From the NCBI GenBank assembly GCA_905233985.1, contig CAJOFA010000017.1, positions 61,112-125,111 of the forward strand: a stretch of DNA of 64,000 nt. Direction: 5' to 3'. The DNA comes from an uncultured Prevotella sp. GTDB lineage: Bacteria; Bacteroidota; Bacteroidia; Bacteroidales; Bacteroidaceae. Below are positions 11,875-63,898 of the stretch, piece after piece. A model generated the notes under the pieces. That model ran no database searches. It was not told where the DNA came from and was given only the letters and a program-made list of their open reading frames with translations. The translations under genes were made by a program, and so were the position numbers. Numbering within the stretch: the first letter of the stretch is position 1; each line of letters begins with the position of its first letter.

Positions 11875-12429
11875 ATGGAGAAAATCATCTTAGGCATCGA
11901 CCCAGGCACGAACATCATGGGCTACGGACTCATCAAAGTGCAGGACGGCAAGGCACAGATGCTGACGATGGGCGTCATCGACCTGCGTAAGTTCGGCGAC
12001 GGCTACCTGAAGCTCGGTCATATCTTCGAGCGCGTGACGGGTATCATCGATGCCTATCTGCCCGACGAGATGGCCATCGAAGCCCCGTTCTTCGGCAAGA
12101 ACGTGCAATCCATGCTCAAGCTCGGACGTGCCCAGGGCACTGCCATTGCCGCCGCCATCCATCACGGCGTGCCCATTCATGAGTATGCACCCATGAAAAT
12201 CAAGATGGCCATCACGGGCAACGGCAACGCCTCGAAAGAACAGGTGGCAGGCATGCTGCAACGCTTGCTCAAACTCACCAAGGACGACGTCAACACCTTC
12301 ATGGACGCCACCGACGCCCTCGGTGCCGCCTACTGCCACTATATGCAGATGAACCGTCCGGAGTCGCCTGCCCACTATCGCGGCTGGAAGGACTACGTCA
12401 ACAAGAACAAAGACAAAGTGAAGGGTTGA
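11875..12429 (+). CDS. ruvC: Crossover junction endodeoxyribonuclease RuvC
   Basis: 184 aa; [36 protein letters not shown]. Confidence 0.93.
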
Positions 12430-12431
12430 AA

Positions 12432-12466
12432 CATCAAACGTCAAATTTCAAACTTCAAACTTCAAA
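12432..12466. repeat. Heptamer array NNTCAAA x5
   Basis: catcaaa|cgtcaaa|tttcaaa|cttcaaa|cttcaaa, ending immediately before the ATG at 12467. Confidence 0.9.
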
Positions 12467-13762
12467 ATGATCACCGCCATCATCGGCCGCAATGCCAGCG
12501 GCAAAACCCAGTGGGTGGAACAGTTCCGCCGTCAGACGGCCAGCGACACGCTGCGTTACGTCGCCTTCCGCGATACCTACGGCACCACCGTTGACAGCCA
12601 GTACTACCTGCAGCTGCGCTGGAACCAGCACGACATCGACGCCGAGATGCCTACGGTCAGGGACAAGCTGTTCCTTTACCTGCCCCCCGATGGAACGGTC
12701 AGTCCGTCCTCCCACTTAGCGGAACTTCTCCGGCTCTTCCACCTCGAAGACGCGCTTGACAAATACATCATCACCCTCTCCAGCGGAGAGCTTCGTAAGT
12801 TCCAGCTGGTCAAGACGCTGATGAGCCATCCGAAGATACTCATTCTCGATAATCCCTTCATCGGACTGGATGCAGAGACACGCCAGCAACTGCGTGATCT
12901 ACTGCCCGTCATCGCCCGAGAGCAGCACATCGACCTCTACCTCGTGCTCGCCAAGACCGACGACCTGCCGGAGTATGTGGATAGGACTCTCCCCCAGCCC
13001 CTCCCTATGAGGGAGGGGGGCAATATGTCCAATCCCACCAACTTGCCCTTGAGTGTAATTCCTCCCCTCCCTAACAGGGAGGGGACGGAGGAGGGTCTCT
13101 CTTCCCCCGTCATCCGCATGCGCAACGTCAGCATCCGCTATGGCGAGCGCACCATTCTGAAAGATCTCAACTGGACGGTTCGCAACGGCGAGCGCTGGGC
13201 GCTGTCGGGCAAGAACGGCTCGGGAAAGTCAACGTTGCTGTCGCTGATATGTGCCGACAACCCACAGGGCTATGCCTGCGACATAGAACTCTTCGGACAC
13301 CAATGGGGTGAGAGCGGCATCAGCATCTGGGACATCAAGCGTCACATCGGCTATGTGTCACCAGAGCTTGCCCGCTCCTACCACCGCGACATCCCCGCCA
13401 TCCGCATCGTCGCCAGCGGACTCAAGGACACCGTGGGTCTCTACGTCCGTCCCACCGCCGACGAGCTGGAGCAATGCCGCGCGTGGATGCGCGTCTTCGG
13501 CATCGAACATCTTGCCGAGCGTTCCTTCCTGCATATGTCCAGCGGAGAACAGCGCCTCGTGCTCGTCGCCCGAGCCTTCGTCAAAGACCCCGAGCTGCTC
13601 ATCCTCGACGAGCCCCTGCACGGCCTCGACAACGAAAACCGTCAACTGGTAAAGGACGTCATCGAAGCCTTCTGCCAGCGCCCCAACAAGACACTCATCA
13701 TGGTCACCCACTACGAAGAGGAACTCCCCCCTTGCATCACCCATCACCTCCGCCTCCAATAA
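12467..13762 (+). CDS. Double-domain ABC ATPase (ModF/PhrA-like), no TM segments
   Basis: 431 aa; two ABC domains (GRNASGKT..., LSSGELRKFQL; SGKNGSGKSTLL, MSSGEQRLVLVARAF, LLILDEPLHGLD). Confidence 0.8.
   Translation: MITAIIGRNASGKTQWVEQFRRQTASDTLRYVAFRDTYGTTVDSQYYLQLRWNQHDIDAEMPTVRDKLFLYLPPDGTVSPSSHLAELLRLFHLEDALDKYIITLSSGELRKFQLVKTLMSHPKILILDNPFIGLDAETRQQLRDLLPVIAREQHIDLYLVLAKTDDLPEYVDRTLPQPLPMREGGNMSNPTNLPLSVIPPLPNREGTEEGLSSPVIRMRNVSIRYGERTILKDLNWTVRNGERWALSGKNGSGKSTLLSLICADNPQGYACDIELFGHQWGESGISIWDIKRHIGYVSPELARSYHRDIPAIRIVASGLKDTVGLYVRPTADELEQCRAWMRVFGIEHLAERSFLHMSSGEQRLVLVARAFVKDPELLILDEPLHGLDNENRQLVKDVIEAFCQRPNKTLIMVTHYEEELPPCITHHLRLQ
12990..13100. repeat. In-frame palindromic element, two 21-bp perfect palindromes
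   Basis: CCCCTCCCT-ATG-AGGGAGGGG (12998-13018) and CCCCTCCCT-AAC-AGGGAGGGG (13064-13084) inside the double-ABC CDS. Confidence 0.9.
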
Positions 13763-20160: not shown

Positions 20161-20775
20161 TTAACTTTTAAACGGCGTCCGGTTCAGGATGGACCGTCCC
20201 AGCGTCACCTCGTCAGCATATTCCAGTTCGTCACCCACAGCGATGCCTCGTGCTATCACACTGATGCGCACATCGTAAGGTGCCAGCTTGCGGAAGATAT
20301 AGAAGTTCGTGGTGTCGCCCTCCATTGTCGAACTGAGCGCCAGAATGACCTCCTTCACCCCACCCTCTGCCACACGGCTCACCAGCGAGTCAATCTCCAG
20401 ATCACTCGGTCCAATGCCGTCCATCGGAGAGATGATGCCACCCAGCACATGGTAGAGTCCCTTGAACTGTCCCGTGTTCTCTACAGCCAGCACGTCACGC
20501 ACATTCTCAACCACACAGATAAGCGATGCGTCACGCTGCGGATTGGCACAGATGGGACACAGGTCGCTGTCGCTGATATTATGGCACACGCGACAGTACT
20601 TCACCTCACGCTTCATGCGGCTGATGGCAGCGGCAAACTGCTCCACGTCCTCCGTGTTCTGCCGCAACAGGTAAAGCACCAACCGCAAGGCTGTCTTGCG
20701 TCCGATGCCCGGGAGCTTTGCAAACTCCTCAACGGCCTTCTCCAATAGTTGTGACGGATATTGTTGTTGTATCAT
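20161..20775 (-). CDS. recR: Recombination protein RecR
   Basis: [17 protein letters not shown], four-Cys zinc motif [16 protein letters not shown]; start assigned at MIQQQYPSQ, since upstream codons of the listed ORF are repeat-derived. Confidence 0.92.
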
Positions 20776-20815
20776 TGAATTTTGATGTTTGACATTTGAA
20801 GTTTGAAATTTATGA
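20774..20815. repeat. Heptamer array, minus-strand core NNTCAAA (+ strand TTTGANN), 6 units
   Basis: attgaat|tttgatg|tttgaca|tttgaag|tttgaaa|tttatga fills the recR/ABC-F gap. Confidence 0.9.
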
Positions 20816-22627
20816 TTACCCTTCAATTTCACTTAATTCCAGCCAGCGCATGGACTTCTCGTCGAGTTCATCCTTCAGCTGGGGCAGACGCTTGCTCTTC
20901 TCCGTCAGTTCGTCAACAGAGAGCTTTCCGCTGCACAACGCCTCTTCCAGCGCCTTCTGCTCAACCTCCAACTCATCGATGTCATGCTCCAGCTGTTCCA
21001 TCTCACGCTTCTCCTTAAAAGAGAGCTTGCGCTTCGTATCTCGTACCTCGCGCTTCGTATCTCGTACCTCGCGCTTCGTATCTTGTACCTCACACCTCGC
21101 ACCTCGTACTTTTTCCTTCGCTCCTCGTACCTCGCACCTCGTATCTCGAAGCTTCTCCCACTCCCTATACTGTGTGTAGTTGCCCGGGAAGTCTTTGATG
21201 TTGCCGTCTCCGCGGAACACGAGCAGGTGGTCCACCACCTTGTCCATGAAGTAACGATCATGGCTCACTACGATGACGCAGCCTGGGAAGTCCTGCAAGT
21301 ATTCTTCCAGAATCTGCAGCGTCACAATGTCGAGGTCGTTCGTCGGCTCGTCGAGCACGAGGAAGTTAGGGTTACGCATCAGCACCGTACAGAGATAGAG
21401 CTTGCGACGCTCGCCTCCGCTGAGCTTATACACGTAGTTGTACTGCTGCTCGGGCGTGAAGAGGAAATACTGAAGCAACTGCGAAGCAGTCAGCTTGCGT
21501 CCCCCTAAGTCAATATACTCGGCAATATCACGCACAATATCAATAACCTTCTGCTGCTCATTGAATTGCAGTCCTTCCTGCGAGTAATACCCAAAGCGTA
21601 CAGTGTCGCCCACGATGATGCGTCCTTCATCGGGTTGCACCTCACCGAGCAGCATCTTCACGAACGTTGACTTGCCCGTGCCGTTGTTGCCCACGATGCC
21701 CATCTTCTCAAAGCGAGAGAAGTTATAATAGAAGTCCTTGAGCAGCACGAGGTCGTCATAGCGTTTCGAGATGTACTGGCACTCGAATATCTTGCTGCCG
21801 ATATAGACGTTGTTCGACTTTAGGCGCAACTGCCGTTCTTCCAGGCGTTGCTTCGCTACACGCTCCAGCTCATAGAACGCGTCTTCCCTGTACTTCGCCT
21901 TGTGACCGCGCGCCTGCGGCATGCGGCGCATCCATTCCAGCTCCGTGCGGTAGAGATTATTGGCGCGTGCTATCTCAGCACGGCGTATGTCCAGACGCTC
22001 CTGGCGCTTTTCCAAATAGTAGGCGTAGTTGCCGCGATAGGTATATAGCTGGCGGTCGTCCAGCTCAATGATGATGTTACACACACGGTCAAGGAAGTAA
22101 CGGTCGTGCGTCACCATGAGCAGCGTCTTGTTGCCGCGCTGCAGGAAACCCTCCAGCCACTCAATCATCTCCAGGTCAAGATGGTTCGTCGGCTCGTCGA
22201 GTATCAGCAGGTCAGGCTCAGTGATGAGCACGTTGGCCAGTGCCACACGCTTCTGCTGACCGCCCGAGAGCTGTCCTATGGGCTGCTGCAGGTCACGGAT
22301 TTTCAGCTGCGTGAGGATCTGTTTCGCCTTCAACACCTTTTCGGGGTTCCCCTCATGATTGAAACACGCATCGAGCACGCTCTCCTCGGGGTCGAATTTC
22401 GGCTCCTGCTCTAGCATACCGACACGCAGGTCACGGCGAAACACGATGTCGCCCGAGTCGTAACCCTCATGCCCCGCCAACACCTGTAGCAGCGTCGATT
22501 TGCCCGTACCGTTCTTGGCAATGAGCCCGACGTGCTGTCCCTCGGCTATTGAGAAGCTGATGTCCTCGAAGAGCACCAGCGCCCCGAATGACTTGCTGAG
22601 ATGTTGTACGTCTAAGTAGGGAACCAT
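20816..22627 (-). CDS. ABC-F family ATP-binding protein (Uup-like)
   Basis: two ABC domains, ABC-F linker, coiled-coil C-terminus; start assigned at [15 protein letters not shown] because the longer ORF start (22651) lies inside a repeat array. Confidence 0.9.
21029..21150. repeat. In-frame heptamer array (NTCGNAN-type) in the ABC-F gene
   Basis: cgcttcgtatctcgtacct repeated; period 7 bp; encodes [38 protein letters not shown]. Confidence 0.9.
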
Positions 22628-22635
22628 ATTATTAC

Positions 22636-22793
22636 AACGTTCAATGTTCAACGTTCAATGTTCAACGTTCAATGTTCAACGTTCAATGTTCAACGTTCAA
22701 TGTTCAACGTTCAATGTTCAACGTTCAATGTTCGTTCAATGTTCAACGTTCAATGTTCAACGTTCAATGTTCAACGTTCATCGTTCAACGTCT
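22636..22793. repeat. Heptamer array, alternating AACGTTC/AATGTTC, about 22 units
   Basis: direct reading; strict 14-bp alternation, one truncated unit at 22734-22737. Confidence 0.97.
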
Positions 22794-63835: not shown

Positions 63836-63898
63836 CATCAGCCATCAACCATCATCCATCAGACATCAACCATCTTCCATCATCCCTCAGCCATCATC
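63836..63898. repeat. Heptamer array CATCANN x9
   Basis: catcagc|catcaac|catcatc|catcaga|catcaac|catcttc|catcatc|cctcagc|catcatc. Confidence 0.92.

Follow-up and report, generated by a model that had tools for sequence, protein, structure and literature searches.

A probably mobile palindromic repeat family of Prevotella, read in frame between the domains of a ModF-like double-ABC ATPase and in loops of core enzymes

The window, i.e., the whole 64-kb stretch of DNA analysed here, belongs to contig C17 of a Prevotella MAG (G000; 2.53 Mb, 83% complete). It includes a gene for a ModF-like double-ABC ATPase that hosts a palindromic element (Table 1). The best NCBIfam match of the protein was ModF, with 304 bits, under the equivalog cut-off of 459. 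The ORF is open through the element, where it reads ...YVDRTLPQPLPMREGGNMSNPTNLPLSVIPPLPNREGTEEGLSSPVIRM..., and, as the initial annotation of this DNA had it, this reading falls between the two ATPase domains. The same annotation described two perfect 21-bp palindromes about 45 bp apart. Both were recovered as copies of CCCCTCCCT-NNN-AGGGAGGGG with a spacing of 45 bp; the shuffles gave an expectation of 0.01, and a chance origin of the pair is excluded. No further match to this pattern with up to three mismatches was found in the window. Both palindromes are hairpins of a larger inverted repeat with arms at 12985-13024 and 13058-13097 (40 nt, 80% complementary), and the single-strand fold of the region beats 200 of 200 shuffles (z = -3.65). 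The window also contains heptanucleotide repeat arrays at 12429-12466, 20775-20811, 21029-21148, 22635-22791 and 63836-63898. Their units differ (AAACTTC, TCGTACC, CAACGTT, CATCAGC), and one array runs directly up to the start codon of the ATPase gene.

Table 1. Features of the double-ABC ATPase gene and of the palindromic element within it (positions in the window).
Feature	Position	Strand	Evidence
ModF-like double-ABC ATPase gene, 431 aa, hosting the element	12467..13762	+	ORF; two ABC_tran stretches; NCBIfam ModF; orthologues in Prevotella
Palindromic element, 115 bp; in-frame reading, about residues 173-211	12984..13098	.	covariance model; absent in L060-L064; low pLDDT
Left half-unit, 38 nt: arm GGACTCTCCCCCAG and hairpin	12984..13021	+	half-unit alignment; covariance-model match
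Variable centre of the element	13022..13060	.	not conserved from copy to copy
Right half-unit, inverted	13061..13098	-	covariance-model match
Perfect palindrome CCCCTCCCT-ATG-AGGGAGGGG	12998..13018	.	sequence
Perfect palindrome CCCCTCCCT-AAC-AGGGAGGGG	13064..13084	.	sequence

The initial annotation proposed a genome-wide search for the palindrome pairs. Apart from the window element, only two places in the window genome have the exact 19-bp core; what identifies family members is not this core but their arms, which are longer and variable. CTCCCCCAGCCCCTCCC with up to two mismatches was found 25 times in the window genome (13 forward, 12 reverse), whereas a control pattern gave 2 forward and 1 reverse match. 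From an alignment of 17 half-units, a 38-nt covariance model (R2) was built, which gave 45 matches in the window genome at E <= 0.1 and 20 at 1e-4. The left and right halves of the window element scored 56.0 and 51.6 bits; the window copy is among the 17 half-units used for R2, and its 56 bits are not independent. Based on R2, the family is present in 71 of the 120 Prevotella genomes, with counts that are lower bounds in several of them, while across the order 12 of 197 genomes were positive, mostly with weak matches (the window genome is included in both sets). The suggestion of a widespread repeat is therefore supported, and the objection that the palindromes might occur only here fails. It should be noted that most of the genomes compared are MAGs, with one genome per species, and that G117 is a closed genome consisting of a single contig.

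The repeating unit is a 38-nt half consisting of an AGACYC-arm and, after it, a G/C-rich hairpin. In many cases, two halves lie head to head and form an element of ~113-117 bp with the pattern AGACYC[AT]CCCCC...GGGGG[TA]GGGTCT, the centre of which varies between copies. The ends of the window element are GGAC...GTCT, against the family consensus AGAC...GTCT. Genome G072, the most heavily loaded one and picked for its copy richness, contains at least 106 elements (44 head-to-head pairs and 62 single half-units among its best 150 half-units, to which all its counts refer), with modal lengths of 116, 117 and 101 bp. A search of Rfam returned only chance miRNA-like matches, far under the gathering scores. 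In the window genome, a related short single hairpin, CCTCCCCCGACCCCTCCCAAGGAGGGG, was also observed, partly in ORFs (L013, L015, L023, L025, L020).

Alignment of the window gene with its orthologues revealed empty sites. The nearest ModF orthologues, L060 and L061 (76% identity over the best segment), have another linker sequence and lack the element, and the same is true of L062-L064, so the objection that all orthologues share the same linker does not hold. The length and sequence of the linker vary in all orthologues, which would suit an ordinary low-complexity native linker merely resembling the repeat. However, the 38-nt unit is found at dozens of sites that are unrelated to one another, and its score in the window is 56 bits, albeit for a copy from the training set of R2; this reading is refuted by the dispersed family and retains hardly any credence. 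Two more distant orthologues carry an element of their own in the same linker, namely L069 (a full pair) and L065 (right-truncated). In the two-domain tree, the three carriers are separated by non-carriers, and independent entries into the ModF linker are therefore most likely. The orthologous linker sequence is missing around the window element. It follows that the element replaced the native linker, either at once or by later loss, and that the insertion either was not clean or underwent reworking. Consequently, of the in-frame insertion claimed for the linker, the frame and the element-free nearest orthologues stand, and the clean insertion was dropped, since the native linker is gone.

Listing the copies within coding sequences, as had been suggested, showed that reading through the element is common. 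In the window genome, an ORF of 200 aa or more continues through the repeat at 16 of the 22 loci; the hosts include RecQ, glutamate synthase, PnuC, LeuC, an RluA-type pseudouridine synthase, HemW and CarA, some of these cases being weaker, related single hairpins. For G072, a copy was counted as in frame when its ORF comprised 200 aa or more and extended for 40 aa or more to either side of the element. By this criterion, 79 of the 104 copies examined (76%) are in frame within ORFs, and the value for random positions in the same loci is 78%, so that genes are not avoided there. Among the remaining 25 copies, at most six resemble out-of-frame gene breaks, defined by long open runs on both sides on one strand, which may equally represent two adjacent genes. 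The picture in the closed genome G117 is different: 15 of 42 copies lie in genes versus 64% in the control, i.e., a depletion, yet 8 of the 10 best-scoring matches are genic. Intergenic hairpins, either older or related ones, may have lowered the genic share in G117.

A strong hairpin within a coding region might also be skipped rather than translated, by translational bypassing or removal from the RNA. Against this, all 32 gene-internal pairs of G072 are open in the frame of the gene, although they were counted by that very criterion. More telling is that 8 of the 12 pairs outside genes have no open frame in any of the six, together with the small number of candidate out-of-frame breaks. Skipping is accordingly regarded as very improbable, and out-of-frame copies are presumably removed by selection.

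Interrupted ORFs passing the curated NCBIfam cut-off include ValS (two elements), IleS, AlaS, CTP synthase (two), PriA, Era (two species), PrmC, DapF and DnaG. For the element-bearing genes, score and cut-off are 934/704 for ValS, 838/457 for AlaS, 762/308 for PyrG, 750/621 for IleS, 351/237 for Era and 229/115 for DapF. Some such hosts of the element are also found in the closed genome G117. From the open frames and family scores, it appears that the element-bearing proteins are made and active.

In alignments of the host proteins across the genus, the elements fall in loops. The length of PyrG loop 1 and of both ValS loops varies in many species. Two further PyrG loops are nearly constant, with most of the 30 orthologues empty, and carry half-units in G034, G062, G117 and G334. 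The PyrG loop-1 insert sits between residues 128 and 129 of PDB 9kao, with no template residue lost, and for LeuC, CarA and PrmC solved relatives align on both sides of the insert. The encoded peptide is rich in Pro, Gly and Ser; left halves are mainly read as xTLPQPLPVREGS or xTLPQPLPVGRGVDTS and right halves as TPLPHREGxGxxL or YSPPSQGGAGGGS. No match to this peptide was found in Pfam or PDB. In the AlphaFold2 model of the window protein (28 sequences, mean pLDDT 81), residues 181-210, within the element, have a pLDDT of 44-52, and the flanking domains mostly 75-95. The insert is thus predicted to be flexible, and the simplest reading of the model is a disordered linker between intact domains.

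The very stable fold, together with the position of the hairpins between domains or in loops, may suggest that the copies are not passengers but are retained for a function of their hairpins as RNA or DNA, acting in co-translational pausing between domains or in mRNA stability. However, host gene, site and orientation mostly show no relation from one species to another, and orthologues do without the hairpins, which makes such a role improbable. It should also be mentioned that the same gene site is occupied in two species (L248 1436-1550 in G072 and L218 1755-1870 in G034). This gene, which we take to be beta-galactosidase-like, acquired its element either by an inherited insertion or by transfer.

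No target-site duplication beyond that of shuffled flanks was detected in 42 copies (p = 0.51). No Y1_Tnp was found in the window genome, a MAG that is 83% complete. Among the Prevotella genomes compared, 10 or more copies occur in 9 of the 21 genomes with Y1 and in 8 of the 25 without it (p = 0.55), and none of ten Y1 loci checked carries the repeat (one match at E 0.5). No match to phages or plasmids was obtained with a C/G-rich query that was partly filtered as low complexity, and no longer element with a transposase gene was noticed among the loci read. Since neither target duplication, nor a correlation with Y1, nor an autonomous partner among the loci read was found, we infer mobility only from the distribution of the copies.

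These results bear on two known classes of mobile repeats. REPINs, i.e., REP doublets mobilised by RAYT (Y1 HUH transposase), likewise consist of two inverted hairpin units, with singles too, and share with the Prevotella element the unpaired end tag, the head-to-head pairing and the absence of target duplication. However, the tag is AGAC instead of GTAG or GTGG, and the Y1 data above give no sign of a cognate transposase; a REPIN proper is therefore rather improbable. The second possibility is a MITE, the parent of which would be a DDE-type insertion sequence, so far unrecognised, with AGACYC-matching ends. The inverted ends, the length of 100-250 bp and the numerous near-identical copies fit this, and MITEs with in-frame ORFs (ERIC/RU-1, RU-2, NEMIS) are also short inverted repeats able to fuse in frame. 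In contrast to them, the Prevotella element has no target duplication above shuffles and no parent IS among the loci read, and most G072 copies are genic, whereas such MITEs are mainly intergenic (PMC2229807). We regard a MITE as unlikely, but as an alternative that deserves some weight.

At the outer flanks of the G072 pairs, additional AGAC is overrepresented (17 of 44 versus 9.8%), so the ends are often iterated. Iterated ends (..cagacccagcAGACCC) were observed in L213, L226, L237, L242 and other loci of G072, where they are translated as QQTQQTLP or GGGSAGGGS runs. Furthermore, several longer pairs consist of two inverted half-units that bracket a native segment in place of the variable centre, as in PyrG of G062 and G334 (L260, L259) and in glutamate synthase (G117:C1:264233-264409; L362 3734-3910). 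The half-unit is therefore probably the basic piece of the element, and the iterated ends and bracketed segments hint that it is itself the moving piece.

Rickettsia provides the best-known examples of in-frame palindromic elements, and it has been discussed whether new protein segments could arise from such elements. The Rickettsia palindromic elements (RPEs; Ogata et al. 2000, as reviewed in PMC2229807 and PMC10969869), to which the initial annotation likened the window element, are about 105-150 bp long, palindromic and present in many copies, and the lengths of 115 bp in the window and of modal 116/117 bp in G072 agree with this. Like RPEs, the Prevotella elements, of about 100-150 bp, are inserted in frame in unrelated conserved genes (PMC2229807, PMC10969869), encode a recurrent peptide, have empty sites in relatives and are without a known transposase. 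They differ in sequence, in phylum and in belonging to a non-endosymbiont genus, and also in a load of up to at least 106 copies in one genome. In G072, genes are struck as often as random DNA, compared with "nearly half" of RPEs in ORFs (PMC10969869). Moreover, RPEs of R. conorii have a CGTC end tag (PMC3733652), and the ends here are AGAC...GTCT. Judged by its sequence features, the Prevotella element behaves as RPEs do, but its sequence, end tag and phylum set it apart from them.

CGTC-tagged REPs are similar in having a hairpin with a short unpaired end tag, in being in part genic and in lacking a dedicated transposase (PMC3733652). They are mostly head-to-head dimers; in G072, 44 such pairs stand beside 62 single half-units among the best 150. 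CGTC-tagged REPs are defined by a terminal CGTC, TGTC or CCTC and by a stem that begins with two A-T pairs, whereas the Prevotella tag is AGAC/GTCT and the C/G-rich stem, CCCCTCCCT, has no such pairs. As CGTC repeats have been reported in Bacteroidetes, among other phyla, and gene-internal REPs in other bacteria (PMC3733652), the principle is already known. No report of such elements in Prevotella was found in the open-access literature searched; a published PLPHREG string from a pig-milk study proved to be a chance match within a protein sequence. As far as this literature shows, the Prevotella family, its copy load and the non-avoidance of genes in G072 are new.

Based on the above results, we suggest, with a probability of roughly 0.87, that the window element belongs to a mobile family of palindromic repeats in Prevotella, of which it is a single copy, tolerated in the ATPase linker. 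A copy would have entered the linker of the double-ATPase gene, and the native linker would have been lost simultaneously or afterwards. The gene may have survived because the element, free of stops in the relevant frame, adds a presumably flexible peptide at a place where length hardly matters. A more tentative idea, which we consider rather doubtful, is that the spread favours translated DNA or swaps loops in frame, i.e., that the element is a mobile linker cassette. It arises because the genic share in G072 equals that of random positions, while random insertion with loss of frame-breaking copies should, as a reasoned expectation, leave far fewer, and because native loop residues are often replaced and not split.

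With dozens to more than 100 copies per genome of a gut genus, in aminoacyl-tRNA synthetases and other core enzymes, the family offers many natural insertion experiments with empty-site controls. With these, both the way in which the elements move and the choice between tolerance and usefulness become testable. The family may also account for the recurring peptides PLPHREG and PSQGGAGGGS in Prevotella protein predictions. Finally, PyrG and ValS loops of other Prevotella that are without the palindrome (L262-L274, L305) often contain other repeat-like peptides, such as SEELRVKSEEF, GKVNSEKFA and EGKVKSEKFA. Such peptides may be translated heptad repeats and, possibly, a second kind of in-frame repeat.
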